From Paramecium tetraurelia (Eukaryota; Ciliophora; Oligohymenophorea; Peniculida; Parameciidae), in the NCBI RefSeq assembly GCF_000165425.1, contig NW_001799639.1, positions 266,136 through 330,135 of the forward strand: 64,000 nt of DNA, in the 5' to 3' direction. Positions 12,583-56,900 of the stretch are shown here, piece by piece. Both the position numbers and the translations under genes were made by a program. The notes beneath the pieces are model-generated. The model made no database searches, was not told the DNA's origin, and worked only from the letters and a program-made list of their open reading frames with translations. Position 1 is the first letter of the stretch. Every line of letters starts with the position of its first letter.

Positions 12583-15500
12583 ATGAATTTGATTTCATCA
12601 TTTATTTTTGTTGCTTTACTAACAACTCCTTGTTTTTAGAAATGCAGCTAGAAGATAGATGCATTGACTATCTATGCCACAAAAGATGAGCGATTGAATT
12701 GGAATTTGGTCGATGAATTTTTTAGTGGGGCAGGGTTGACATTCTCTTTAAGTGATACCCAACAGAACTAGTTCAAGATAATAGATCCGGTAGAAAACAC
12801 AGGAGGTTCTGCTCCATATATCGAACGTATTTAAAAGTTATGAAGTGTTAGCTGCCTAAAAGATTGTATCATCAAGAGCACTAAAGTCAAACAAATATTG
12901 GGTGAATTCATTCGTGTTTTTAAACAAGGGAACGACCTCAATAACATTGGGAATAGCCGAAGGGTATTATAGATTTATATATGTAATAGTGAGGCAGGTC
13001 AGAATGTGGAGGCTCCAAAATTTGATGAGGTCATAACTTTGAACTAAATAACAGACGGATTAGATTGTTATGATTTGGAATACATCGCTGAGAAGACCTT
13101 TATTGTGGATTGTTCAAAGGTGGTTAAGAATGAAGTCAAGAATGTGTTATATTATGTGAATAATGGAGATTCTTTTGAATACTTGGTGGAGGATGCATTA
13201 ATAGAAGCCCACCATGGCCGTTTATTGGGCTAATACAAAGTAAAAGGATAGGGTGGAAAGGAATTCAGGTATTTGGTAAGAGCAACTCCATCATATTCGA
13301 TTTCACAAGATGGAACTTTGAGTGGAGACTCATTATTGGAGGTTTACCTGTTGAATGATATGGGCTAACCCTCCTATACAGGATATGTATTGGATGGAGT
13401 AACAATGGGTTTTTTGTTGGATAAATTCTATGATTTTGAGTTTAACATCGTGGATATGAAGGTGTTGGAAAATGGAGATATTTATTTGTTGGATGCTTAA
13501 TATGGAGTACTTATAGTAAACTTCGTTCCAAATGGTACATTCTCATTGAAGAAATAAATTGATATTGGAATGGGTTTTGCTTATGCATTCGATAGAAACA
13601 TATTCTTGAGAAGAGACGGCACTTACACAGAGAACATAGCTGTATTAGGATATGGATTTGTTGAATTGATCGTCAATGGTGTATTGACATCAGAATACAA
13701 ATTGCCAGAGGGAATTCATTACACATTCCCGGCTAATGTTGATTTGTCATAAGAGTTCGTGATTGTTAGACAAGATGATGCCACTTATCTTTTTGATATT
13801 GATGCAAAATCAAACGACTTGTTACAATTACAAGTGATTCAATAGACTAATTATGTTATGATTAATCCATTCTTGCCAGATATGATAGTGTTGACTTTGG
13901 ATCATGCTTACAGATACACCTTATCTTAGGGATATCTTCAATACAAAGGATCCGACGCTGTGTAAGAAAAGAAGATGATTGAAATCATAGCAACAAGTGC
14001 TGACTAAACTTGTAAGGTTCAATTAACATATCAGATTATTGAGAGTGATGATAAACAACTATATAAATACACTGATAGTCTCACTCCATTCCCAACTCAA
14101 ATAACAGAAGACACTGAGCCATTCTAATTGAATGTGCTAACCAGTGGACCAAATGAGTAATACAAGCAAGTTGTGGAATTGAAAGATGATACAACTGCAG
14201 TAACAGTTACCTTAAGAACCTATTGGGAATTGAAATTCCCCATGGAATTACCCAAGGATTTATAATTCCACGATGTTTTAGTCGGAACACAATCATCATA
14301 TTTCTTCTTGGCTCAATAGAATAAGGATGGCAAATTAACCATTCTCAAGGCTACACATGATTCCATCTTCAATGGCGATGCCACTTACGAGAAAGTATTT
14401 GACAGTGTGACTGTTGGTACTAAATTGACTAAATCAACATTCTAAATGTGGGAATGTGAATGTCCCAAATTCCACTTCGCTTATGTTGAGAACAATAATG
14501 TATACATGAAGGTCTACACCAATAATCAAGTGAAAGATATAAAGACAATCCCATTTGAGAACGGTGTTAGCATATTGTTCTTAAAGAATTATCTGTTCCT
14601 CTTGTAACACGGAACTGTCAGTGCATACACAGAACATGGAGACTTTGTTAAGTCTGTTGATTTGGATTTATTGGTAGAATAAGGATACAAGGGAACATGG
14701 GCACCCAAGAAGATCTTTGGTAATAGAAAGTTAAGAGAAAATCTTATATTTGTGATTCATCAAGATCACATCACTCTCATTGGATTTCCACACATCATAC
14801 ACCTTCATAAAACAAATTGACATTGATGAATCTGATAACATTGAATTGGCCATCGGTGCCGAAACATTCTTTGTCATTACTAATAAAATTGTAGAATACG
14901 ATTTCGATAGATTGAATAACATCTATTAGACCAAAGTAGTCTAATTGTATAACTTTGAATTAGTCTGGCCACTTTTGGGTGATTTCTGTTCAGACACAGG
15001 TTATCTCTTTGTAGTTGCTAAAACTAAGACTTAATAACTTAATGAAGACACTGCTAAGAATCACATCTTGGTCATTCAACCTAATACACTTCAACATGAA
15101 GCAGTTTTCTAAGCTCTCCCTGTTGAAGATGCACAATTGATCTCCACTTAAGGAACCTCAACCTAAATGTATGTCTATCTCCAAACCAAGACTCAAGCTC
15201 AGGTCTACTCTATGTTGACTAATCCTGTCTTAATTGTTGAACCATCCATCAATGATCCATAATTTGCTGCTTCAATCGATGTATCTCTAGAGATCTTCAA
15301 TTTCGAGGATTCACCTTCTATCACTATCAAATAGCCTATCAAAGTCATCAATACTCAAACCAAAGTTTATGTAGACAAAACCAAATTCAAAGCAAACTCA
15401 ATTGAAATAGACTCTAAGGATTATGCTAAAAAGGAAAAGAAATTAGGAACTGATTGGTTTAGTGGCCAAATCTCAGGATTCCAAATTACCTGTGATCAAT

Positions 15501-23952: not shown

Positions 23953-24009
23953 TTATTTCAATTTACTAAAGAGTAATATGTTATTAAGTTAATTTAAATT
24001 ACACATATA

Positions 24010-24457
24010 TCATTTAACTCTCTTTTAGAACTATTGATCATCTTCCCAATCAATCTCATCACATTTTGGTTGTGTATCAATTTTTTTAAAGGAACAAGCA
24101 GGGTGCTTTTGAACTTGAACTGGGGGGTGGTTGATCTGTTTGCTTTATTTTAATAATAGAGACACTGATTATAAATCAGCATCCTCATTTTATTAATCCA
24201 ATTTCATTTAAATATCCATAAGATGAACAGATCCATTTTCCTTTACTTCAAGCTTTATCTATTGTAATTCTGGAATGATTTTAATTCTTAGGGGCATTTA
24301 AGAGATTTTCTATGTAAAAAATATATTGACACTTGATTCAACGAGGCTAAGACTTTTCCATTCATTACTCCAGTAAAGTTGGTTCCCTTAACCAAAACTG
24401 CTTAGGGGAATATAAATTAATCATGATCAGCTACCTACTTAATAGTTTATTTCCCAT
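24010..24457 (-). CDS. Unrecognised small protein, 128 aa
   Basis: Two introns (38 and 23 nt) give 129 codons including stop. The N-terminal part reads VLVKGTNFTGVMNGKVLASL, the middle is Lys/Gln-rich and helical, and the C-terminus ends in an acidic IDWEDDQ. It resembles no family I can name. It lies 35 bp downstream of the isovaleryl-CoA dehydrogenase gene on the same strand. The first intron boundary is less certain than others in the window because several GTs are available. Confidence 0.5.
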
Positions 24458-24492
24458 AAAAAATATTTATTTATTAATATTTTCATTGAAGG

Positions 24493-25736
24493 TCATTGTG
24501 TTAGCTGTCTGCCTATTAACCACTTTCTAATTTCATTTGTGCCTGCAGCAATCTCATAGAGTTTGGAATCAAGCATGATTCTGCCTACTGGATACTCCTT
24601 TGTGTATCCATTCCCGCCTAAACATTGGATGGCTTCTAATCCTACTTGAGTGGCATTAGCAGAAGTATAATAAATCAAAGCAGCGCAATCCTAGGATGAG
24701 TTGAATATATTTACAGTATTTGTAATATTGCCCTAATCAACAGCTCTAGCAACACTATATAGCATAGCTCTACTTGCTTGTAGAGTAGTGTACATTTCAG
24801 CTAGCTTTTATTACATCATTTGAAATTAACCAATCTTTTTACCAAATTATTCTCTAGTGTTACAATAATCTCTTGAAATATCAAAGGCAGCTTGCATCAA
24901 TCCAACTGGGCCTGCTGCCAAGACTAATCTTTCATAATCTAATCCACTCATTAAAACATAGACTCCTTAGTTAACCTCTCCTAAAACATTCTCGGCTGGT
25001 ATTTCAACGTTATCAAAATAAATCGGTCCTGTATCGGAGCATTTCATTCCAATTTTATCAAGTTTTTTTCCTTTTGAGAACCCTTTCATATTAGCTTCAA
25101 CAATAAAAGCAGTGATTCCATGTTGTTTCTTTTCTGGTTCGGTCTTTGCATAAACAATGAGGATATCAGATATGGGACCATTGGTAATCCACATCTTACT
25201 TCCATTTAGGATGTATTTGTCTCCTACTTTTTTTGCCGTTGATTTCATTGATACGACATCTGATCCAGCATTAGGCTCACTCATTGCAAGAGATCCCACC
25301 CATTCTCCTGAACACAATTTAGGAAGATATTTCTTCTTCTAAAACTCATTTCCATGTCTTTCAAGTTGAGCTACTATCAAAGCACTATGAGCTGAATAAC
25401 TCAACCCAATTCCTCCTGAGGCTCTACTGATTTCTTCTAGGATCATACAGTGAGCAGAATAGGATAATCCAGACCCTCCATAAGCAGCTAAGTTAATCAT
25501 GATAAATGCTTACGATTAACAGTGGCACCCAATAGTCCCAAGTCTCCCATCTTCCTCCATAGATGAGGAGGGAATTTACCTTCTTCATCGGCTTTATCTG
25601 CCAATGGAGCTACCTCCTCATTTGCAAATTTTGCTACATGTGACCGTAACTCCTCAACTTCTGGTGGAAGATTGGCAATGAAGTTAAAATTAAGGAGTGA
25701 AAATGAAGCTCTTAGTTTGCCGAGTTTTTATAGCAT
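24493..25736 (-). CDS. IVD: Isovaleryl-CoA dehydrogenase (acyl-CoA dehydrogenase family)
   Basis: Mitochondrial flavoenzyme of leucine breakdown, oxidising isovaleryl-CoA to 3-methylcrotonyl-CoA with electrons passed to ETF. A basic N-terminal presequence is followed by [35 protein letters not shown], the acyl-CoA dehydrogenase signature [13 protein letters not shown], and [23 protein letters not shown] contains the Glu that is the catalytic base in IVD (elsewhere in the family the base is near the C-terminus). [26 protein letters not shown] and GRQLTQ end it. One 26-nt intron gives 405 aa, close to the usual length of about 420. The assignment within the family rests on the ERLVLA Glu and [11 protein letters not shown]. 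Confidence 0.9.
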
Positions 25737-38644: not shown

Positions 38645-38926
38645 GAATTATTATTTATATGTGATAATGTCATTAAGTTTATTTCAATTAATCATCATTT
38701 GAATCATTTATTATCTATTCCTTAATTGCCTAAGTAAGAATTTTATAATCATTGTTACATAATTAAATCTATTTAAAATGTTCTATATTTTATCAGTCTA
38801 ATAGGAAATTATTATGAGTTTTTAATGTATTTACAATCCAGTACAGCTTATTGATAAAGTCCTATTTAAGAATATACAGCTGATGATATTTATATAAATA
38901 TTTATAAATTTATTAAATATCTAATT

Positions 38927-40394
38927 ATGACTAGCTTGTTTGATGAAAAGGAATGCGAAAATTGTAAGAAGGTATCTAATTAATATTAAAAATCAGATTG
39001 AATCTGATTATAACATTGTGAGGATAGATCATATAAAACTATAAGCTGAATATGAGAAATTATAAAAGGATATAGAAATAATGAAAAGGGACACCTCATT
39101 AGTAATCTACTTTATTATTCACTTAGAATGATGGAGAATTAAAAAAAAATAGGTCGAAATTTGATTAATTGTAAAATGAATTAAATAAGATGAACGAAAA
39201 ATATTAGAAATTATAGGGAGAAAAAGAAAGAAGTGATGGAATGATAAAGCAATTACAAGCTATAAATTAGAAAATTTAATAAGAAAAAGAGGAAATGTTA
39301 TTTGCAAAGCCAGCAGAGAATCCAGAGTAAAATCAAGCTCTTCAACAAATAAGTCTATTGCACGAGTAATTAAGAAAAGCCTAAAATTAAAAAGAATAAG
39401 CCCTTTCCATTAACACTCAATTAACTTTAGAATTATAATAATTAAAAAGTTAATAAAAACCACAATAAAATATTGTTTAAACAGTTCAATTTTAAAGGGA
39501 TTCAACATCAAACGAAAAAGTGTTTTAAATGGAAATATAAAATCTTAGATAAAGAATTAATGAGATGAACGTTGCCCTTCAGAAACAACAACAAGAATAT
39601 TAAAATTTACAATAAGAATCTAAATAATAGATTGAAAATTTATAATAGTAATTGGAACAATAAGATAAAAATATTGACTAATAATAATCATCAACTATAT
39701 AATTGAAATAGTTGCAAGCATAATTAAAGAAAATGGAAGCCCAAAATAAAGTGTTACAAAAATAATTGGATTATAAAACTTAAAGATATAATGAATAGGT
39801 AATTTACATCACTAATTAAGCTTGATGATATTAATAAATTATAGGAAGAACTAAATGCTTGTAAAACAAACTAAATTGTTAAAGTCCTTGGAGATGAAGA
39901 AAAAGATTACAAGGAAAAATATAAATAGGTGTTACATTAGAAGAAAGAACTTGAGTAAAGTTTTAAAGAGAAGGAATCTTATTTGATGTAAAAAGTTTAA
40001 CAGTATGAATAACACATCAAATAAAGTAAATTTTATTGGTAATAATCTTAGAATAAGGAAATGCTGGCTTAGAAAATGTAAAATTAAAAGAGAAATTGGA
40101 TGAATTAAAAGAACTATAAGGAAAGCTAAATTAAATTTAAGAAGAAGAACTTACTTAAAAAGTAAAAATTATGCATAACCTTAGATGATTAATTCGAATT
40201 AAAAGAAATAATTAGATGACCTAATCAATAGTTAATATCAGTATAAATAAAAGGTCAAACAATTAGAATCCCAATTATAACAATGTGAAGATAAACTGAT
40301 TAAATCCAAGTACTAAATAGCTGACATGATGAATCTTGCAATGGAGCTTGGATTGACTTAATTACTTGATAAATTTGCTTCATTATAATAGTGA
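38927..40394 (+). CDS. Coiled-coil protein, 448 aa
   Basis: Begins MTSLFDEKECENCKK, where the Cys pair could bind metal. It continues as almost uninterrupted Gln/Glu/Lys/Leu coiled coil and ends in a more conserved-looking IADMMNLAMELGLTQLLDKF. Five introns (25, 25, 22, 26 and 23 nt) are required; the spliced length is exactly 449 codons with stop. The many TAA/TAG glutamine codons make it invisible under the standard code. A structural or tethering role is likely from composition. Family not assigned. Confidence 0.75.
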
Positions 40395-40514
40395 TATTAA
40401 TATATTAAATTAATCTTATAATTTATCATAAAATTCTAGCATTTTATTTATATAAACCTAAAGAATTTGATATAATTATTATTTATGAGATTAATATTTT
40501 AATTAATAAATAGA

Positions 40515-40972
40515 ATGGGTAAATAAAAATTGAATGAAAAATAAAGTTCAAGTTAGCCTAAATTAAAAATTGAAAAAAGCATAAGCAAAGAGTAGGTTTA
40601 GGAGTAGGATGGTGCTATTAATATTTCAGAAGTTACAGAAATAACCTGTAGTATTTGTTACTCCTCTATAGCAGATCAAGTAATATCTTCTTTACATATG
40701 ATAAGGGAATTATTAAAAACTGTAAACATACATATTGTTTCTAATGTATTTAAAAATGGTCAGAGTAGAATCTTACATGTCCTTAATGCAGAGCTGATTT
40801 TACAAAAGTGATAAGAATTAGGAAAGTAGGTTAGAAAGCTAAAAAGAAAACTTACAAATTTAAATAACCAAAATAAAGTAATGACACATCGCTCAACATC
40901 AATTTGATACAATACTATACTTAATTACTATTTTTAATGTTTGAAATATATTAAGATAGTGACAGGGAATGA
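40515..40972 (+). CDS. RING-finger protein, 143 aa
   Basis: A basic/Gln-rich N-terminus precedes a C3HC4 RING: CSIC, then after a 26-nt intron CKHTYCFQCIQKW and CPQC. The tail is basic (KKKTYKFKQPKQ). The intron falls inside the RING, between the first and second metal-ligand pairs, and its removal gives 144 codons including TGA. Predicted ubiquitin E3 ligase; partner and substrate unknown. It lies about 175 bp from the left border of the RSP4/6 duplicated block, tail to tail with copy 1. Confidence 0.8.
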
Positions 40973-41148
40973 TATTACTTATGTATTAATATACGTATTT
41001 ATATGATTTACATAAAAATTGATAGAATCTATATGAAAAATGCCTATTATATAATATTAATATTTTAAAAAGTCTACTCAATTTTTACTTGAATTTATTG
41101 AGTCAATCTTAGATGAATTAATTTATGAAATAATGATATAAAATAAAG

Positions 41149-42642
41149 TGTATCCTCTTATTCCATAATTTAATAATAATAATGATCAATCTTATTGTTA
41201 TTAAGGGACTTCAGCTGGGAAATTTGGTTCTGGCTATTCAGGAAGATCTGGTTGTTCTGTTTATACTTATTATGGTTATTTTGGATAGAAATGATTGGTT
41301 GTTGCCTTGAAACCATAACCATAATATAATTATGACAATACTTTGTTCTATGATATAGATTAAATAAATTAATACAGAATAGACAGTGACTAATCCTGGC
41401 CAAACTAAAGATTTAATGATAATAACACCATTATTAACTTTATTATTGGTGTCTTTAGCTAAAGGATTATAATCAGTTGTATCTCCAACAATTCTAATTT
41501 TCCAAGCAGGTTTATTATTTGGTAATTTATCATTTGATAATTATTTCAATCTATTTTCAAATGGATCAGCTGCTTCTATTTATTTTTAATAAATATCTGG
41601 TTCTACACCATCTGGTAATTCAGATGGTATTAAATGAACTAATCTACCACACTAATATATAAATATTATATATATATACATTTAATATATTTGTATTGAA
41701 ATGCATCCAATCATTTAATGTTTTTAATTCATGAAATCCTGGTAATTTATATTCAGGTGTTTAATCTATTTCTCTTGGTTCACCTTCTCTTAAAATATAT
41801 TAACCTTTAGGAATAATAACAGTTGATTAAGTAATTCTAACAATTTATGCTTTTAATAAATGTTTTTCTTTTCCAAAGAAATAAGGATTAGTAATAACAT
41901 CAGCTTCTAAATTACCTGTAAACATATATTTAATTTATCTAGACACATTGATTTATTAAGGTGTAATCAAAGGTAATTCAACCCAATCCTTATCATTTAA
42001 GATATCAGTGCATGCCCAATAAGATTTAGTATTAACTCCAGATCCTCTAGGTTCAACTTCAGGTGGTAATTCCCCATCTTCAACTTGACTATTAGCAACT
42101 CCTTCAGCAATATAATAATCCTTTTCTCTTGCCATGATTTTACCCCAAAATCTTAATTTAGATGCTTATTTAGTAACAGATAATAACTAAATATTAATAT
42201 ATAAATTACTGATAATGCCTTGAATATTTTATAATTTTCATCAATTCCAATACCAGCCCATTCATATAAATAAGCTTCTTCTGTTAAATTAGGTAAATAT
42301 CCAGTTTAAGTTGCTTCCTAAGGTTCTTCATCAGTTCCAAGATTAATTTTATTGACTAGCTTTAATGTCTTCTATTAAATAGCTTAATCCATTGAAATCT
42401 TTGTTCTCTCTGCATTATCAAATTCATTATATTTATCAAATGAAAATCCACTTGATTTTACCTAAAATGAATAATCTTCAAATAATTCAAAAGCATTCTA
42501 CAATTATACTTAAACATATATTCTTACTTTTGGATTATCCAATAATATCTTAGTCAATACATTATTCAAATGTTAATATAAATTTGTATTTGAATCCTTT
42601 ATCTCTTGCAGTTTCTCTTTTAACATTAATCTAAATTTTTAA
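41149..42642. repeat. Duplicated block, copy 1 (1,494 bp; derived copy)
   Basis: Near-identical to 53746-55239 with a constant offset of 12,597 bp, no indels, and substitutions only at 41779, 41816 and 41817. It contains a complete RSP4/6 gene with 16 bp upstream of its ATG, 37 bp downstream of its TGA, and the first 18 bp of the sorting nexin gene that follows copy 2. Neither border shows obvious terminal inverted repeats, target-site duplication or poly(A). Introns are retained, so it is not a retrocopy. Confidence 0.95.
41186..42626 (-). CDS. Radial spoke head protein RSP4/6, copy 1
   Basis: Radial spokehead component of motile axonemes, needed for control of dynein-driven bending. 453 aa. 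Conserved segments: YLYEWAGIGIDENY, KLRFWGKIMAREKDYYIAEG, SYWACTDILNDKDWVELP, FTGNLEADVITNPYFFGKEK, KPAWKIRIVGD and SLVWPGLVTVYS. Introns of 23, 28 and 28 nt give exactly 454 codons with TGA. Differs from copy 2 by Ile263 (Arg in copy 2) and Glu275 (Asp). Only 16 bp of its original upstream DNA came with it, so expression would need a promoter at the new site. The tail is Pro/Gln/Glu-rich. Confidence 0.92.
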
Positions 42643-43474
42643 ATAAATATATATTAAAAATTAATCTTTTTATATAAATCAAATTTGCCGAATATTAAAT
42701 ATATCAATATCTCAAAATAAAACCTTTTTTCTTAAATTCTTCTATAACAAAATCTAATCTCACTATATTTTTTAATATAGGGCTAAGACTCCACGAAAAG
42801 ATAATTTCTTAGACAGATAAGAATTATTAGATTATATTATCAAAAAGCTTAGCTTAGTAAATTCTGAAGCAAGTTGTAAATGTAATAAATACTCAATAGA
42901 TATTTTAGATCCTATAGATTATAGAGAATTTTGTTAAACCCTTCTCTTTATTCTTCAGCAGGTTGAGTTTAGATTTTGGTACCATTAATCAAATCACTTT
43001 AGACAAAAACAAAACCTATGTCAAGATAGTACTACACCGCATTTTTCGTTTCTTTATTACACAACAATTCAGAGTTCATTTTTGAATTGGAAATTAGATA
43101 TTTCAATTAAAGTATTAGAAGAGTTCAATACATCTAGACAGCCATATTTAAGTTGTACAATATATTATGTTATGATATTAAATTATAGTCTATATCTTTT
43201 TTATTTATTAGTTTGGTTTATTTTTAAATCTTTAATAAGATTGATCATGAAAATTATATATCTCTCAAATTATAGAAATGAGAATTGGTTTCATAAATCA
43301 TCAACTCTGTATTAATAATTAATTCTCTAGAGATTTATAATTATAATATAGAAAATAAAAATTAGATTAAATGATTTCAATTTGTTCTCAAATTAGTTTG
43401 GTACTCAGTAACTTAATTTAATTCTATAATCATTAAAATCTAGTTTGATTATGTTAAATAATAATTAATTTTGA
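42643..43474 (+). pseudogene. Long open frame without a start, possible gene remnant
   Basis: One plus-strand frame has no TGA for about 275 codons, beginning at or before the border of duplicated copy 1. The stretch 42780-43160 has gene-like composition (DNFLDRQELLDYIIKKLS, then SCKCNKYSIDILDPIDYREF). No ATG lies in frame in its first 170 codons and no upstream exon is available because the RSP block begins there. I infer a gene whose 5' end was lost, perhaps when copy 1 inserted. Chance openness cannot be excluded. Confidence 0.3.
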
Positions 43475-45894: not shown

Positions 45895-46695
45895 TCATTT
45901 TAATATAATTTAATTATATTTCTTGGGGAATTACAAATTCTTTTCCTTCTGTTATACTTTATTCCATAATTGATGATTCAATGCTATTTTCACTTAATTT
46001 CGAAATTATCTCTCCATTTCTTGTTTCCCCTATTTTCAATTTTTAAATGTATTACTATTCATACCTTAACTCTCCCTATTTAATTCTTTTCACTCAATTT
46101 AATATTATAATATACTGAATTTAATCAACCTCAATTAAATTAATAAAATCCATTGGAGTTGATTTTAAATTGGTGTGTCTAAGAACGCCTGCTTTCTTCA
46201 ACATTTTTAATTTTACCTCTCCTCCTTTAACAAACCCACGTAAATTATTGACATAATCAAGCAAAGCAATTTTAATTAACAATTAAAAATAATTTGACTT
46301 ATTTTTATTTCTGTAATAATTTCTCTTTTCTTAAGTGAGTATTTTTATTCACTCAATAATTTTAATACATTAAAGTTCAATTTGTAAAATCCAAATATAT
46401 TCTGCTTTTTATAATACATACCTAAATTAATATGGCTTTCAATTTGACCTTAATTATCCCACACTCTAAATTAAAGTCTACTATACTTTCCTATCTAAAA
46501 TAGTATGATACAGTCATTTTTATCCTCACAAGTTTCAAATTTTGAGTACACCTTTTGATTAAGTCAAATTTAAAATTATACTGTGTTATGGAACATCCTT
46601 ATTTTTTTATGTACACTATCTGAATTATCTTAATCTTTCTGAGCTTTTTAGTATGATGCCAATAAGAGTTCTCTTAGAAATTGATATACAATCAT
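45895..46695 (-). CDS. Unrecognised protein, 229 aa
   Basis: Assembled from five exons (introns 30, 23, 23 and 35 nt) with total length 230 codons including TGA. Ordered-looking parts: MIVYQFLRELLLASYQKAQ, LFQIGKYSRLQFRVWDNQ, LLIKIALLDYVNNLRGFVKG and KAGVLRHTNLKSTPMDFI. No family recognised. The last exon is doubtful: an alternative frame (EIISKLSENSIESSIMEQ) is also attractive but does not end before the next gene. It lies 79 bp upstream of the PH-kinase start on the same strand. Confidence 0.5.
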
Positions 46696-46850
46696 TGAGT
46701 AGAATATGTATAAAAATAATTGAATTTTATTGAGGAAATAAATAAATAAATATGTAAATCAATTAAAGTAAATCAAAAAAAAGAAGGGTAACTCCCAGTG
46801 ATAAACAATAATTGTCCACATCACAGGAGAGATGCTTGATACCTAAATAC

Positions 46851-47711
46851 ATGACTTTGAATAATCAGAACATTAACAAATCAAATAAATATTAAATCTT
46901 AGAACAGATAGGATAGGGTAGTTATAGTACCATATTTATTGTGGAGGACAAGTTGCATGGTGGTTATTATGCAATGAAAAAGGTACTCCAAGACCCAAAA
47001 TAAATAAATAGAGAGTTGGAAATACATACAAACATGCGTCATCCACATATTGCACCTTTACGTGATCATTACCATACTTATGAAAATAAGACCAAATATT
47101 TGCATTTGGTCATGGATTTGTATCAAGGGAATTTGAAAAATGCAATCAGAGTTCCAATAAAAAGAGTGGCGAAATAATTGTTTTAAGCATTAGAATATTT
47201 GGAGTCATAAAATATAATGCATAGAGATCTTAAGCCAGCAAACATTTTGTATTAAAGTGGAAACATATATCTCGCTGATTTTGGAAGTGCTAAAAAAATG
47301 GATGGATCTAAGAGTTTGAGTTATGTATGTTCAAGAGCTTATAGGGCACCAGAATTACTATTCGGTTAAATATTTTATAATACTAAAATTGATATATGGG
47401 CAGCTGGTTGTATATTGGCTGAATTGGAATTGGGAAAACAGTTGTTTTTTGGTCAGAATACCGTTGATTAGATTGTTGAAATATGTAAATTTCTGGGTAC
47501 TCCTAATGAATTAGAAAAAGCTGAGTTGGGATGTTAATTCTACATTCCCAATTTATAGGCTAAGAAACTAAGTATGATATTTATTTATATTGTTTTGAAT
47601 TAGAAAACTGATCCCTTATTAATTGATCTATTGTCTAAGATCTTTGTTTTCAGTCCATCAAAAAGAATCAATTGCAGTGAAGCCTTAAGACATCCTTATT
47701 TTTTGTCATGA
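46851..47711 (+). CDS. GSK3-like (shaggy-type) protein kinase, 286 aa
   Basis: Kinase motifs: [57 protein letters not shown], and [14 protein letters not shown], in which the SRxYRAPE segment with the regulatory Tyr is the GSK3 hallmark. [17 protein letters not shown] and [14 protein letters not shown] follow. It is shorter than usual GSK3 (about 350-480 aa), with almost no extensions. I read it as a single exon; a hydrophobic stretch (MIFIYIVLN) near residue 240 is unusual and could hide an intron, but removing the only GT...AG interval breaks the frame. Confidence 0.83.
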
Positions 47712-48073
47712 TTGTACTAAACCAACATTCATTATAATATATCTAATTAAGACTATTTGATAAATAACAATAAGTTATTAAATTTTATTAAAGTTTTCTA
47801 CATTTCTCGAAATAAGATTAATATAACTCTCCTTAATAGATTGAATCTAATCTGAATTCATAGGATATTATGTGTTTTTCTTATATGGGTTGGATTGTTA
47901 TTGAAATAATCAAAGAATTTTGAAAGAAATTAAAATATGAAAATTTGAGATTCCCTTTAGAGAAGTAATGAGACTTGAATAATGTGGATGATTTAAAAAA
48001 TAAATTTAGAATATGGATATTAAATGGAAAAACTTTAATAAGATTAAATGAATTTTACAATAATACATTGTTA
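47712..48073. other. Intergenic, AT-rich
   Basis: 3' flanks of two convergent genes; nothing recognised. Confidence 0.4.
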
Positions 48074-48390
48074 TCATTCAGTAATTGAAATCATTTAGGA
48101 CATCTCCAGTTTTATTTTCTTTCTGTTACCCTAATCTAATAATGAAGCCTCCTCTGTGTCTGTTGATTAAGAATTGTAATTTGATAGTTGCTAACTCAAA
48201 TCAGTTTAGATCTTCTCAATCTTCTTGATATAAGGTGATGCTAAGAACAACTTTTTATGCGAATTTGATTAAGTATGCTAATTAATTTAATTTCTTATTA
48301 AATACAGTTAAGTAATCTGTATACTTAGTCTTACAAACTGAGCAAATCTAAACTCGATGTTTTGGCTTGGGAATCAGCTAAAATACTCAT
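48074..48390 (-). CDS. Small protein, 87 aa
   Basis: Starts MSILADSQAKTSSLDLL, has a Leu/Lys helical middle (FNKKLNQLAYLIKFAQK) and a Ser/Thr/Glu tail (STDTEEASLLDQ). Introns of 22 and 31 nt give exactly 88 codons with stop. Family unknown. Confidence 0.5.
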
Positions 48391-48882
48391 ATAAAATGGT
48401 ACCAATTATTTATTTTTTATTTTTATTTATTCAATTTTTTGATTAAATAATTGTTAATGATAGTTTAAATTGCTTTCATATGCAGGCTAAATTTATATAT
48501 GAATCATTCATACTTTCTCATATTCAATGATAAATCCAGGAGTTGTGGCCTAATGATCATCATTGAAAATTGGAAAAATATTCAATTTTTATTACAACTA
48601 TCTATATCAATGAGGATTGGTTTTACATATTAAAAACAGGAGTATAATCTATATTAACGTTGCGATCCTTTGAAAACTAACTCTTATTGCTCAAAATGAA
48701 TTTGTAAGACATTATATATATTATATATAATTTATTATTTTATTTCATTTAATTTTATTTGAACTACGACTCCGCAACAAATGCATATTAATATTATAAA
48801 TATCATTTCTTATTTCATCATCAATTCATTATTTAATTCCAATTCCAAGTTATTAATTATTTCCTATTTTATTCATCTTATA
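48391..48882. other. Intergenic, AT-rich
   Basis: Upstream DNA of two divergent genes (48074-48390 minus and 48883-49465 plus). No distinct motif recognised; a TATATA repeat lies near 48715-48730. Confidence 0.4.
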
Positions 48883-49465
48883 ATGTAAGATAAACCTTAC
48901 CAAGATAACAAATAGATAAGAAACCTCTCTCAATAATCTAATTACCTTTAGAATGAGCATCCAATGTCTATCTCAGCTTACCAATCTAAATTAGTTGTTA
49001 AACAATGCTAGGTAATTAACAATCAAAACATAGTTACTATAATTTATTTAACGTCAAGAACACCTTAAATGCTAATTAAATTAACTTCGAAAAACCAGAT
49101 AATTTAGTTAACAACAAGAAAGAAAAACTTTTGCAACAAAACCTAGAGCCTTTAGTATTCATCACAAAGATCAACTATGCAATAATAGCCAACCGAATTT
49201 GATTAATGACGACAGTAATAATGAAACTGATCACTGTTAGTTTTAAAAACGAGAATTTTAATCAAATAACTTCTCTACTTTTTGTGACAATTCTTTAAAA
49301 AAACAAAAATTCTTGCCTCCTATGAATCCACCTAACTAAGATCCATTCCTTTAGACATTTGGAAAATAAATGGATTTAGTATCCAAAAATAGATTTCCTA
49401 AGGAAGTTTTCTTGGGAAATGTAAGCAAAATGAAAAAACAGTTTTAGTAAAACTTTTATCTATGA
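48883..49465 (+). CDS. Low-complexity hydrophilic protein, 186 aa
   Basis: Gln/Asn/Lys-rich throughout with scattered Phe and Pro (FLPPMNPPNQDPF near the C-terminus, and a final KNRFPKEVFLGN stretch). One 22-nt intron gives 187 codons including TGA. No family recognised. The composition suggests a disordered protein. Confidence 0.55.
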
Positions 49466-49673
49466 CTATCATTAAAGTCTTAAATACTATTGATTTTTAA
49501 TAAAATAACAATTCTCTAACATATAATAATTGACCTTTAAAAAATATCTAAATTCTATTTTCACACTTGATAAATATAGTAAAATAGAAATTAAATTATA
49601 ATATTAGATCTCATTAAAATCTATTATAAACTACAATATTATTTAGTTGTTGATATATAATGTATCAAACTTA

Positions 49674-51574
49674 TCAATTATCAAAATTTCTTCTAATTTA
49701 CTAGTTATTAAGAAAAATTTTAACAGCTTAAATCTCTTAACAATTGGAATTCGAAGGAGAAAGACTCATTTTTGATTCAAAATCTTGGTAGTTTCCATCA
49801 ACAATTATTTTAGATTTTCTCTCTTCAAATTAAAATTAAAAAACCTATCTTTATTCAGAGTCTGATTGATGCTCATAAAATAGTTTAATCATATCTTAAT
49901 CTAAACACTTAACTATTTTTTATCCAATATTTTCATTCATTTCTGGCATTTCTTGAATCTAAAAAAATGATTTATAAGCTTCAATAAACCTTCCCAAATT
50001 CTCTATTATTTATAATTAAATCATACTTATTTTTTGATCCGGATGCTATTCTTAATTCAATTTATTTTGTTATTAACCATTTATCATTGGAGTGGGAATA
50101 AGATCAAACAAAATTTTCTAATTAGCAGTCAATAAAACCTATTTTAGATTGTCCAATTGTTAGAATTTTCTCATTATTTCCACTATATCTAAATTTTCTT
50201 AGATTCTCAAATTTGCTTAATTCAATGAATTTAGTCTTTTCTTATTGCATCCAAAACAGAATTACAGAATATTTATTAATGAATCAGGTAATTTTTATCC
50301 TGGTTTTTATACATATTTCTCTAAATTTTATTTTGTACTGGTGTCTTTTTTTACACTTTAAGTAAGATCATTTACCTCCTCCTAAAACCTAAACAATTTA
50401 TTTGCTAAATTGATCTTCATTTCAGTCTAAATGAATGGTTTTGTAATAAACCCAAAGATTATAAATATTAATTACCATAGACCTCCAATCTTACTTAAGA
50501 TAGTTGGTAATTTGATGTAGGATCTTTAATAACTAGTATATTTGTTATCTAAAATTATAAAATGATTGACTAAATAATCGGAATTGTAACTTGAAGTTGA
50601 TTCCTAAAGGTATTATTAAACCAAAAATTAATTTTCCACAATATTATTAGTCAATACACCATTATCAGTAATAGATTCTATTATCCGAAATCCAGAATAG
50701 ATGGTTTTCGAAGTTGAGATTGAAAATTATGTGAACTACAATTTTATAAAGTTTTATTGGATATCCTGAGGATTACTCATTTAAACCAAAGAATCACTTA
50801 TATGAACAACGTAAAAACCATTGATTAACTCTTCATTTATCTACTCCTAAGTTGCACAATCCTGTTTCTCTGTACTATTTTTGCAAGCCGAAAATTTGAT
50901 GGCAATATATTAATAAGTATTACCGGAAATTATTCCTTAGAGTATCTCAAAATTAAAAATATCATTACCGGAGGGTTGCTTTCTAAGACTTCTTTCTTTA
51001 TGCATTAGACTGCTCCTAATCGAATTTTATTAAAATATTCCTTTTGCATATCTGTAACAAAGTTTTCAACGGTGCATGCCTCTGTGGGATAGTTAATGCA
51101 TCTATTTCAATACTTTTCAAGCATACGTATTAATGACATCTATTTTATTGGTAGTTGTGTTTAATTATCTTATTCTTTTGCAATTTTCAATTGAAATTGT
51201 AAAGTATTTGTCAATTGTTGTTAAAGGATTTGAATCCATGTCACCAACTGATACTGCTAGAGTGAAATTCTTAGATGATAATGGAAATGGCTAAAGCAAT
51301 ATTTTTTAATCATACCGATGTTTCTAAGACTAGATGCTCACTTAAAATAGTTTAAGGGAGTTGTTTCAAGACTAATTCCTAAACTTCTTAAACTAAGTAA
51401 GCAAATGTCAATGAGGATGCTAAAATCGTAAAAAGTACTCCTAGAATACTTGAATATTTTTGATATCCAAATATCAACAAACTTGGATAAGCACCATATA
51501 AATCAATAGCTTGAAAAAAATTCTTACATTTATAAGCCTAAGTATAAAATAAATATTACTAATGAATGATTCAT
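49674..51574 (-). CDS. Ciliate multi-pass membrane protein family member, 601 aa
   Basis: After a short start exon comes FFQAIDLYGAYPSLLIF, a transmembrane helix (SILGVLFTILASSLTFAYL) and a Cys-containing luminal or extracellular region (CINYPTEAC, AVQCIKKEV, SACKNSTEKQDC, DSDYLVNHFI). Then SYQRSYIKLPTILSKIGGLW leads into a second hydrophobic segment (LIFIIFGFITKPF). The cytosolic tail has EIMRKFQQLDNLKQVLLT and QKILFDLIPTPMI. This architecture and the YQRxYxKL-GGL motif recur in proteins annotated only as putative transmembrane proteins in Paramecium and Tetrahymena, from memory. Introns of 22, 25, 25 and 23 nt give exactly 602 codons with TGA. Function unknown. Confidence 0.75.
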
Positions 51575-51900
51575 TCTGAATTTCAATAATAATTAATTAT
51601 AATATATAAGATAACCTTAATCTTAGATTAAATGCTAGGGCTATTTTATTTAAATTCAATTTTTAATGAAAAAATTTAATAACGAAAATTATTCGAGAAT
51701 GATAGCAACGTATAGCATACTCAAAATCAGTTACTCTTAAAGTAATAAATATTTAATATTAAAGAGATGAATCAAGGAAGAAATACTAAACAAATTAAAA
51801 TATATAAATTGTTTATTATTTATAATAACTGATAAATAAAATGAGTAAAGCTATTTGAAAGTGCGGTAAAAACAATTTATAATATATTTAAAAATATGTT
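51575..51900. other. Intergenic, AT-rich
   Basis: Nothing recognised; promoter side of the membrane-protein gene and 3' side of the RING gene. Confidence 0.4.
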
Positions 51901-52286
51901 TCATAAAAAATCTTTGGGTCCATATCTTCCAGCAAGCGTATCAATTGGAATATAATCTGAATCGCTGCTCTCACTTTCAGAATTTGATAAATAGATGAGT
52001 TGTTCTTGGAATATAAATACTATTTACTAGATATTGATTGTTTTTTAGAACGAGGATACTTTCTTATCGAAAGTTTTATTATGGTTGAAACTTTACATCT
52101 ACATTTGGGACAGGATTTCTTATGCAAAGTCCAATTCAAAACACAATTTATACAGAAGTAATGATTGCATTTTTTGAAAATACCTTTGTTTTGGATTTCT
52201 TGGAGACATATTTCGCATTCATCTTTTTCTGTTTGTTGTTCTAATTTTTGTTGTTCTTCATTATTTGAAATTTGTGATTACTGCAT
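51901..52286 (-). CDS. RING-finger protein, 120 aa
   Basis: A Gln/Glu-rich N-terminus precedes a C3HC4 RING: CEICLQEI, KKCNHYFCINCVLNW, CPKCRCK. The C-terminus is acidic/Ser-rich (NSESESSDSDYIPID) and ends GRYGPKDFL. One 23-nt intron gives 121 codons including stop. A predicted small E3 ubiquitin ligase; the target is unknown. It lies about 165 bp from the end of the sorting nexin gene on the same strand. Confidence 0.8.
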
Positions 52287-52451
52287 TTTTATTTTTATTA
52301 TTTAATATTTTTAAATATTCTAAGGGTTTAAATATATCAAAAATTAAAATATATATTAAGGATTTAATCAAAATTGATATAATTATAAAAAGTTGAAAAT
52401 TTATATTTTATAATATAATTTAATTTATTGTTTATTTATATTTTTATGTTT

Positions 52452-53763
52452 TCAAACAACTACTTCCGCTTCTGTTCCTTTTGATACTTCAGACCAGAAT
52501 TTGATGTACTAAAATTATTTATATAATAATTACTAATTAATTGAGTTATTATTCCAATTAGCTAACCTTAATTAAAATTTCATAATATTTATTTTATTTG
52601 TTCTTTTTGAATCTATCAATTTCATCAAAGCATAATATGGATGTAATCATAATGCAAAGATCTTCCAATAATTTAATTTCATTTTGTGTCTGTTAAATTT
52701 TATATATTATTTACTTCTTAGATCTTCTTCTCTAAAGTCTATGCTTAATCTGTGTTTGATCCTTTTGAAAACATGGACTTAAGAGTGGTTTTACCAGCCT
52801 ATAATTTCACTAGTTCACTATTTTAATCTCTTAACTTTTGTTATGCCGAAGCTTTCAAATTGTCTACAAATTCTTTCTACTTCAAGGTTTCTTAAAATGC
52901 CTCTACTTCCCTGCATTCAATTCTAAGCAAATCAACAAGGTAATCATAATTGTATGTCTAAGCATTTTAGTCTTTCTGAAATATTATATCAATTATACAA
53001 TTTCTCTTGCGGTAACATTTACGTCATTGTGATTTGTGAAAATTAAATTTTCTGTTTTATGATTCACATACTCGATTAGAATATTTTTCTCATATTCTAG
53101 TCCAATGGTTTAAGTCATTATGTCTAATATAAATGACTTGTCATACTAAATTAATCTGTATATTATTTCTTTGCTGCAGCCAATAATTTCACTTATTCTT
53201 TAAGACTTTCTAATTATTTAGTTGTTTTGTTTAAGTAAGTGGAGAAGCTGGATACTTTCAAAATTAAATCTGAATTCACCTCTCTTCCATTCAAATGGGG
53301 GAAATTTTTCTTAAATTTTTCATACACTTCTTATATAGATTATTTTGGTAATCCTTGTAATGCCTATTAATATCAAAAATATCTTATTACTTTCTCCATG
53401 TCAGTATTCTTTGTTCTCAAAAAGGTCTAAAATTCATCAGAGAAGTAAATATGTCTTAACTTAGCCACTTATTCTAGGAAATATTATAGGAATCTTTTAC
53501 GATCCTCAACTACTTTTTGTTCATTATTTCCCTACACTATTAAATAATAATCTTACCAAAGCTTATTTTGCTGGAATTGGAGGAACATAGCATCCTGGCC
53601 ATCTTTGTAATAAAGTCAATCTCAGAACATGAAAGTCATTGTAACGACGCAATGCTTCAAATTGACCTATTTTATCTTCTCCTTTAATGTTATAGGAGAC
53701 ATGCTTTGATGCAATAGATTCGGTGATATTGATATTGATTGGTGTTGTATCCTCTTATTCCAT
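52452..53763 (-). CDS. Sorting nexin (PX-BAR), 385 aa
   Basis: PX domain: HVSYNIKGEDKIGQFEALRR, YNDFHVLRLTLLQRW, PGCYVPPIPAK and DRKRFLQYFLEQ. A C-terminal helical BAR-like region follows (VDLLRIECREVEAFQETLKQ, LQAGKTTLKSMFSKG, IDRFKKNKQ) and the protein ends EVVV. It would bind phosphoinositides on endosomes and shape tubules, as SNX1/2-type proteins do. Introns of 25, 23, 23, 25 and 58 nt give 386 codons with stop. The start ATG lies only 19 bp after the TGA of RSP4/6 copy 2, and the first six codons fall inside the duplicated block. An upstream non-AUG or alternative start was not found. Confidence 0.83.
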
Positions 53764-55239
53764 AATTTAATAATAATAATGATCAATCTTATTGTTATTA
53801 AGGGACTTCAGCTGGGAAATTTGGTTCTGGCTATTCAGGAAGATCTGGTTGTTCTGTTTATACTTATTATGGTTATTTTGGATAGAAATGATTGGTTGTT
53901 GCCTTGAAACCATAACCATAATATAATTATGACAATACTTTGTTCTATGATATAGATTAAATAAATTAATACAGAATAGACAGTGACTAATCCTGGCCAA
54001 ACTAAAGATTTAATGATAATAACACCATTATTAACTTTATTATTGGTGTCTTTAGCTAAAGGATTATAATCAGTTGTATCTCCAACAATTCTAATTTTCC
54101 AAGCAGGTTTATTATTTGGTAATTTATCATTTGATAATTATTTCAATCTATTTTCAAATGGATCAGCTGCTTCTATTTATTTTTAATAAATATCTGGTTC
54201 TACACCATCTGGTAATTCAGATGGTATTAAATGAACTAATCTACCACACTAATATATAAATATTATATATATATACATTTAATATATTTGTATTGAAATG
54301 CATCCAATCATTTAATGTTTTTAATTCATGAAATCCTGGTAATTTATATTCAGGTGTTTAATCTATTTCTCTTGGGTCACCTTCTCTTAAAATATATTAA
54401 CCTTTAGGAATACGAACAGTTGATTAAGTAATTCTAACAATTTATGCTTTTAATAAATGTTTTTCTTTTCCAAAGAAATAAGGATTAGTAATAACATCAG
54501 CTTCTAAATTACCTGTAAACATATATTTAATTTATCTAGACACATTGATTTATTAAGGTGTAATCAAAGGTAATTCAACCCAATCCTTATCATTTAAGAT
54601 ATCAGTGCATGCCCAATAAGATTTAGTATTAACTCCAGATCCTCTAGGTTCAACTTCAGGTGGTAATTCCCCATCTTCAACTTGACTATTAGCAACTCCT
54701 TCAGCAATATAATAATCCTTTTCTCTTGCCATGATTTTACCCCAAAATCTTAATTTAGATGCTTATTTAGTAACAGATAATAACTAAATATTAATATATA
54801 AATTACTGATAATGCCTTGAATATTTTATAATTTTCATCAATTCCAATACCAGCCCATTCATATAAATAAGCTTCTTCTGTTAAATTAGGTAAATATCCA
54901 GTTTAAGTTGCTTCCTAAGGTTCTTCATCAGTTCCAAGATTAATTTTATTGACTAGCTTTAATGTCTTCTATTAAATAGCTTAATCCATTGAAATCTTTG
55001 TTCTCTCTGCATTATCAAATTCATTATATTTATCAAATGAAAATCCACTTGATTTTACCTAAAATGAATAATCTTCAAATAATTCAAAAGCATTCTACAA
55101 TTATACTTAAACATATATTCTTACTTTTGGATTATCCAATAATATCTTAGTCAATACATTATTCAAATGTTAATATAAATTTGTATTTGAATCCTTTATC
55201 TCTTGCAGTTTCTCTTTTAACATTAATCTAAATTTTTAA
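53746..55239. repeat. Duplicated block, copy 2 (1,494 bp; parental copy)
   Basis: Partner of 41149-42642. Differences from copy 1 are at 54376, 54413 and 54414 only. Its left end runs 18 bp into the coding sequence of the intact sorting nexin gene. That sequence is functional here and orphaned in copy 1, so this is the parental location. Confidence 0.95.
53783..55223 (-). CDS. Radial spoke head protein RSP4/6, copy 2
   Basis: Same gene structure as copy 1 (three introns of 23, 28 and 28 nt; 453 aa). Here residue 263 is Arg (codon CGT; ATT Ile in copy 1) and residue 275 is Asp (GAC; GAA Glu in copy 1), in the segment following the FFGKEKHLLKAQIVRITQ stretch. Everything else, including introns, is identical. 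It keeps its original upstream DNA (about 1.1 kb of AT-rich sequence up to the J-domain gene), so it is the copy most likely to be expressed as before. A spokehead role in motile cilia is family knowledge. Confidence 0.93.
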
Positions 55240-56400
55240 TAAATAATAAAGATTATAACAATTATATTAATTTAAGAAAATAAAAATTGAATTCAGAGAA
55301 ATTTAATGATCTCTAATTAGATTATTTCATTGATTAATGAATCACATTTAAATCAATTTGTTTAGCCTCATTAATCCTCCATAACAAATAGAGTATAAAT
55401 TATAATTACAACCTAAAAGTATTTCATTATTTCAGGTGCTCTTTTTCTTATATACAAAACTTTTCTTCGATTATAGATATTTTCTACCATTTCATGGAGA
55501 TTAAAAATATTTATAATTGCTTAAAAAGACAAACAAAATTAATTAATTGTGAAATCAGTTTCTAAGATATATGGAATACATATGAAATTCTACTTTTCCA
55601 ATGTGTTTAGTGAATTACATCAAATCATACATATTAATATTTAATAAAACAAGAAATCTATTAGCAAAGATTAATAATAATATATTTTACAATCTTCTTT
55701 ATTTAGATAAAAGATTCCATCAAAATCCAAATCTATATCAGAAATAAAATGGAAAATAATAATTAAAAAATTCTCGAATTTTTCATAATGAACCAAAAAG
55801 TAAAAATATTATATCTATCTTTTTAAAAATTTTTCCCTTTTTTTCTGTTCATTCACAAAGAAATTATTTTAAATAATTTAAGTATAATTGAGTCATTGTG
55901 AATTACGATTTCTTCATACTTTTCTAAAAAGTTAGAAAAAAGCCAAAATATAATAATCTAATTAAACTTAAATTAAATTAATATGAAAAATGTAATGGAA
56001 TCAAATAATAATTGTAATAGTTATCTATTGATGGGTTTACAATTTCTTTCCAAAACATAATAGAATTTCTCACTTATCTTAATTAAAGGATATTTGTTAT
56101 AAAAATTATCCCTAAAATTAGGATATTTTAAAAAAAATTTCAAAGTAATTATATAAATGGAACTCTAACAAGAATGGATTTTCCAAAATTACTAAAGTTT
56201 TTTGTACATTTTATGAAATTTATCATTTTTTATGTGTCTGTAAGCTCAAGATGCTAAATTTATTGAGTTTTTAAGAGAATTTACATTAATCCTGTATTAG
56301 AATGTGAAAATATTGAATGGCAATAAAAACATTTAGAAAGTTCGAAACAATTCTAATTATGTTTTAATTGGCAGGTAATAAACATTTACTCAATTAATAA
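55240..56400. other. Gene-poor AT-rich stretch upstream of RSP4/6 copy 2
   Basis: About 1.2 kb of very AT-rich DNA between two divergent genes. Should contain the RSP4/6 copy 2 promoter. No snoRNA, tRNA or coding motif recognised. Confidence 0.45.
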
Positions 56401-56795
56401 ATGAATTATTACAATATTCTTGGTGTTTCAAATAACTCGACACACGAACAAATAAAAAAAGCATATCGCGTTCTTGCTAAGCAGCATCATCCAGTAATTT
56501 ATCAAAATATGGCCAGGATAAGAATGCTGAATCAGCATAATTTAGAATAATTTCTGAAGCTTATCGAATACTTTCTAATTCTGAACTTCGTGCTCGATAT
56601 GACATATTCTAAGCTTAAGTGGATAGACAAATCAGCTTATTTAATATGATACGAAATTTTATCAATGGAAATTAAGAGAGAACAGAAGTTAATAGTGATA
56701 ACAATACAAAAGACACAGAAATAATTGACAATGATTCTAAGAATAAGGATATTACTTAAATACAAAAGAAAAAAATTAGAAAAAATCCTCATTGA
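56401..56795 (+). CDS. J-domain (DnaJ/Hsp40) protein, 123 aa
   Basis: J domain at the N-terminus: MNYYNILGVSNNSTHEQIKK, AYRVLAKQHHP, then after a 23-nt intron (56494-56516) DKNAES, then FRIISEAYRILSNSELRARY. The intron separates the His-Pro codons from the Asp codon of the essential HPD motif, so unspliced RNA cannot make a working Hsp70 partner. The tail is Asn/Asp/Lys-rich with no Cys-rich or CTD domains, making it a class C Hsp40. 124 codons including stop. Confidence 0.88.
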
Positions 56796-56900
56796 TAATA
56801 TTATATCTTTTTCTTTGACTCATATTTCATGATTTTTCATTTTTGAAATCTTTAATCACTATCAAATTCTTGAAATTTTATATTAATTTTTTATTATATA

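Follow-up and report, generated by a model that had tools for sequence, protein, structure and literature searches.

Two nearly identical RSP4/6 genes of Paramecium tetraurelia, probably an old local pair homogenised by gene conversion

The window studied here, a stretch of 64,000 nucleotides of the Paramecium tetraurelia genome, contains two blocks of 1,494 bp that differ from each other by three substitutions and no indels (99.8% identity). They are offset by 12,597 bp, their identity ends abruptly at both edges, and together they form the sole non-trivial self-match of the window (blastn, E<=1e-10). The blocks and the features that adjoin them are:

41149..42642, minus strand: copy 1 block with an intact RSP4/6 gene (CDS from 42626 down to 41186; introns at 42187-42209, 41652-41679 and 41348-41375)
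53746..55239, minus strand: copy 2 block with an intact RSP4/6 gene (CDS from 55223 down to 53783)
41149..41166, minus strand: orphan tag, identical to the six opening codons of the sorting-nexin-like gene and cut off from its remainder
52440..53763, minus strand: sorting-nexin-like gene adjoining copy 2, with a PX domain (E=4.8e-16)

In both blocks the ATG lies 16 bp inside the right edge and the TGA ends 37 bp before the left edge, on the minus strand. Each copy encodes 453 amino acids under genetic code 6 and is interrupted by three introns of 23, 28 and 28 nt. The protein of copy 2 matches the Pfam family Radial_spoke (PF04712) with E=8.6e-78 and 262.9 bits, far above the cut-off of 25.7, which places it in RSP4/6. 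RSP4/6 matches were found in both copies and on five further contigs of the genome. When the block was searched against the assembly used throughout this work (69.07 Mb in 231 contigs, a single assembly, with the best candidates scored), the seven matches among those listed consisted of the two copies and weaker ones of 72-85% identity.

The UTRs of P. tetraurelia are reported to have a median length of 19 nt at the 5' and 44 nt at the 3' end (PMC5485702). The 16 and 37 bp that surround the coding sequence are close to these values, so the block corresponds to about one transcription unit; we read no special mechanism into this agreement. Beyond the block, homology between the right flanks of the two copies was not detected (264 of 1,000 shuffles of 150 bp scored as well), and the left flanks gave only a weak signal (18 of 1,000, also over 150 bp), leaving their homology unclear. 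An origin of copy 1 as a retrocopy can be rejected, since all three introns are kept and no run of A follows its 3' edge. Direct comparison and the gene model thus agree with a preliminary description of this DNA in the size and near-identity of the match, in its extent of almost exactly one gene, and in its origin by a DNA-level event.

The same description noted that the block ends in 18 bp that match the opening codons of the gene adjoining copy 2, and the sequence bears this out: on the minus strand, 41149-41166 reads ATG GAA TAA GAG GAT ACA, and identical codons open the gene at 53763. That gene had been called a PX-BAR sorting nexin. The PX part stands (Pfam E=4.8e-16); the BAR part was not confirmed, the later exons giving no Pfam BAR match. 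The letters of the tag reveal a past transfer of DNA from the sorting-nexin side, that is, from the neighbourhood of copy 2, to the place of copy 1. The tag can give neither the date of that event nor the direction of the last transfer.

Much of the window can be compared with a second region of the genome, on a contig here called C30 (the part from 212001 to the contig end). Between window positions 15149 and 63896 and this region there were 22 blastn matches, with 28.4 kb aligned at a length-weighted identity of 82.1%. Among these matches are six RSP4/6 pieces, every one of them hitting both copies. The remaining anchors are collinear with the window, save for one inverted block and one small inverted piece, and C30 is therefore taken as the partner of the window, from 15 to 64 kb, left by the whole-genome duplication (WGD). 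In 130 bins of 200 bp the two partners had a mean identity of 82.5% and a best value of only 96.5%, against which the 99.8% between the two RSP4/6 copies stands out. A WGD partner region, the genetic code and the very short introns all fit the P. aurelia group. Three further features of the window are defined by this comparison:

46690..56844, no strand: segment in opposite orientation to C30:247412-253420, with copy 2 inside and copy 1 outside
56317..56844, plus strand: DnaJ-like gene upstream of copy 2 (Pfam DnaJ, E=7.8e-11)
42643..43030, no strand: upstream flank of copy 1, homologous by shuffle tests and blastn to the upstream flank of an RSP4/6 remnant on C30

The ancestral orientation of the large segment may be that of either partner. 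Its inversion by recombination between the copies can be rejected, given that copy 2 is inside the segment and copy 1 outside. The second, small inversion concerns window positions 24005-24503 and C30:220019-220529.

At the place on C30 that corresponds to copy 1 we found a broken RSP4/6 gene, R1, at C30:239678-240737. It lies between the counterparts of window positions 38664 and 43864 and has the same orientation as copy 1. R1 lacks block positions 126-506, and over the exon stretch that was compared its reading frame is broken by five indels. Over the longest comparable stretch its identity with the copies is 85.8% (795/927), similar to that of other partner DNA here. The correspondence extends beyond the gene. 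The 200 bp upstream of R1 aligned with the 200 bp upstream of copy 1 with a score of 90, a value reached by none of 2,000 dinucleotide shuffles and by none of 232 other AT-rich segments of the window, whereas the score against the upstream DNA of copy 2 was 49 and was reached by 1,378 of the 2,000 shuffles. With 400 bp the scores were 96 for copy 1 (3 of 2,000 shuffles and 0 of 116 segments as good) and 50 for copy 2 (1,993 of 2,000). A piece further upstream, 42860-43030 against C30:241220-241400, scored 81, the best of 2,000 shuffles reaching 57. Collinear flank pieces were chosen by low-stringency blastn, which gives many chance matches in AT-rich DNA, and were then shuffle-tested. In agreement with these tests, the blastn match to R1 extends past the block to 42773 when it starts from copy 1 and ends at 55227 when it starts from copy 2. 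Conservation with R1 just outside the block suggests that 42643-43030 is probably copy 1's own old promoter side.

On the downstream side, the left flanks of R1 and copy 1 showed no homology (174 of 200 shuffles as good), so that the two sites are matched by their right flanks and by C30 anchors at distances of 1.8-3.2 kb. No second DNA match was found in the genome for window positions 38670-41148, left of copy 1, while the DNA before them has its partner on C30. These positions form a coiled-coil and RING-finger region (zf-RING_2, E=3.4e-8 for the frame 40574-40972). A search for sorting-nexin remains in the left flank of R1 found none (147 of 200 shuffles as good). In an ungapped, in-register comparison R1 shares 10 of the 18 positions of the orphan tag and 44 of the 50 positions next to it within the block. 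Either the tag was never present in R1, in which case it arrived by a transfer after the WGD, or it was present and decayed.

The partner site of copy 2 also holds RSP4/6 remains. R2 is a relic of 403 bp at C30:247808-248210, which covers block positions 169-607; its placement, like that of the whole copy 2 region, comes from BLAST pieces and not from the MAFFT alignment. On one side it is adjoined by the counterpart of the DnaJ-like gene (C30:247412-247801) and on the other by remains of the sorting-nexin-like gene (C30:248310-248399 and 248401-248555). R1 lacks roughly the part that R2 retains (126-506 missing, 169-607 kept), a complementarity that is probably a coincidence of two decays. 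R2 as a mere missing piece of R1 can be rejected: gene positions 507-607 are present in both with different sequences, which indicates two copies and not one split gene, and R2 has the neighbours of copy 2. The copies are 76.9% identical to R2 and 80.6-84.7% identical to pieces of R1, values that refer to different parts of the gene. In the only 72 exon columns common to all, the copies, R1 and R2 have four, one and eight private states, respectively. At one translated site R1 and R2 agree on T, whereas K stands in the copies and in the five other RSP4/6 genes; this hints faintly that C30, too, has seen concerted evolution.

The three differences between the copies fall in two codons and lie close together:

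41779..41817, no strand: stretch of 39 bp with all three differences, at which copy 1 has the R1 state

The mismatches (copy 1/copy 2) are at 41779 (T/G), 41816 (A/C) and 41817 (T/G). They change codon 263 (ATT/CGT, I/R) and codon 275 (GAA/GAC, E/D), leaving no synonymous and no intron difference between the copies. In the alignment copy 1 carries the base of R1 at all three sites, and codon 263 encodes I in copy 1 and R1, R in copy 2, and I or L in the five other RSP4/6 genes of the genome, which indicates that all three differences are derived in copy 2. The chance of such clustering within 39 bp is 0.002 for three independent sites and 0.05 for two events. The cluster fits a patch left unconverted; a pair of mutation events in copy 2, or errors in the consensus, would produce the same picture. 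All three changes run from A/T to G/C in copy 2, counter to the mutation bias towards A/T that is reported to be strong in Paramecium (PMC11334263), and biased conversion, old states or consensus errors are all possible reasons.

Taken together, these observations probably reflect an old local pair of RSP4/6 genes, present before the most recent WGD, which decayed on C30 and was homogenised here recently by ectopic gene conversion. RSP4/6 remains lie at both matching positions on C30, so both sites probably held an RSP4/6 gene before the WGD, and the near-identity of the copies then needs a later homogenisation. Silent and intron sites are as identical as coding ones and the edges are sharp; with sites this old, the lack of any silent or intron difference makes recent gene conversion the simplest account. 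The two loci would thus be older than their 99.8% similarity. After the WGD, both members of the pair would have decayed to pseudogenes on C30 and both would have stayed intact on the chromosome of the window, where one locus would have been copied over the other without crossover during DNA repair, in a tract that took in the entire gene together with 16 bp ahead of its ATG and 37 bp beyond its stop. The sharply bounded identity of 1.49 kb, the lack of silent and intron differences and the remains at both partner positions are observed; from them we infer the descent of both positions from one pair that predates the WGD, conversion as the process, and its recency. Unless the tag dates from the original duplication, it favours copy 2 as the donor and copy 1 as the recipient of the last transfer. 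Against that direction, a transfer onto an old paralog would predict copies closer to R2, and no clear closeness of this kind is seen.

Within this account of an old pair, the last conversion may instead have run from copy 1 to copy 2, the tag dating from an original duplication off the sorting-nexin side before the WGD. We regard this as a possible but less favoured course of events. The in-register agreement of R1 with the tag at 10 of 18 positions is compatible with a decayed tag, all three differences are derived in copy 2, and blastn places the copies nearer to R1 than to R2. This agreement is nevertheless well under the 44 of 50 just inside the tag, and R1 may never have had it; R2, for its part, has decayed further and retains a different portion of the gene.

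A second alternative, which we consider improbable, is an effect of assembly, in which sequence of copy 2 was filled into a real copy 1 that had diverged further, or in which the two were misplaced. A repeat of 1.5 kb exceeds the length of short reads, all three differences fall within 39 bp, and gap closing has been part of published Paramecium assemblies (PMC8354472), of which the present one may or may not be an example. Nevertheless, C30 supports an RSP4/6 gene at both positions independently, and the window contains no N. In addition, a copy diverged by 10% or more normally assembles separately.

About as improbable, in our estimate, is the reading first given to this locus, with copy 2 as the parent and copy 1 as a recent DNA-level insertion into AT-rich DNA, the orphan start codon marking the end of the insert. 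The near-identity of the copies and the tag are in its favour, as are right flanks without detectable homology and left flanks without clear homology. The partner site on C30 is, however, not empty, being occupied by R1 in the same orientation and with a homologous upstream flank, and R2 occupies the site of copy 2. A recent insert would have had to land within tens of base pairs of the counterpart of an occupied site, and the three differences are all derived in the supposed parent. The comparison with C30 thus does not support a recent insertion. Independent jumps of RSP4/6 to the same place on both chromosomes after the WGD are barely credible, as nothing speaks for them except the resemblance of the two arrangements: they need two insertions within tens of base pairs of one ancestral point and in the same orientation, and R1 is not young, its divergence (85.8% identity) being like that of ohnologs.

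With gene conversion as the preferred reading, the feature is of a known kind, and its earlier dating as a recent insertion is replaced. Conversion between WGD paralogs has been described as common, widespread or frequently observed in the P. aurelia group (PMC10195154, PMC11334263, PMC5485702). The reported cases likewise concern old duplicates with sharply bounded near-identity over about one gene. They join WGD partners on two chromosomes. Copies 1 and 2, by contrast, are members of a local pair that is older; they lie on one contig at a distance of 12.6 kb, and the WGD partner of each is broken. A search of the literature on RSP4/6 duplicates in Paramecium returned nothing on this pair in titles or in the starts of abstracts.

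Recent single-gene duplications have also been counted in P. aurelia species, with a median of 28 per genome (PMC10195154). The two copies appear to fit the criteria given there (a pair not due to WGD, inside a paralogon, with synonymous divergence <1), assuming that they are reciprocal best hits, and their WGD partners are lost, as the bias described in the same source predicts. Such criteria would probably count this pair. The C30 counterparts indicate an old duplication, however, and only the identity is recent. As a tentative extension, we suggest that concerted evolution of the pair may have begun before the WGD and continued on both resulting chromosomes, and that a sizeable share of the small number of recent single-gene duplications counted in Paramecium, biased as they are to genes that lost their ohnologs, might be old pairs reset by conversion; a literature search on conversion inflating counts of recent duplicates found nothing relevant. 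The partner chromosome acts as a built-in control, which shows how a pair of long standing can be mistaken for a new duplication, and the same test of the partner site is usable on every reported recent duplication in these genomes. It also bears on the gene itself: a bare insert with 16 bp of upstream DNA would have no promoter side, whereas copy 1 probably has its own.

Two ohnolog pairs of RSP4/6 elsewhere in the genome allow a comparison within the family. The pair on contigs C211 and C2 has no conversion block (82-98% identity in bins of 50 columns across the gene), which counts against homogenisation as a rule for RSP4/6. The pair on C189 and C155 is 98.1% identical (1,576/1,607) over 1,607 bp (C189:691576-693182) and 84.4% and 85.0% identical on the two sides, and thus holds a second conversion-like tract in RSP4/6, which speaks for the conversion account given above. 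It resembles copies 1 and 2 in its gene-sized near-identity with diverged sides, and differs from them in joining two contigs and in a tract that begins not near the gene edge but within the adjacent protein-kinase gene (Pfam Pkinase, E=7.7e-22).
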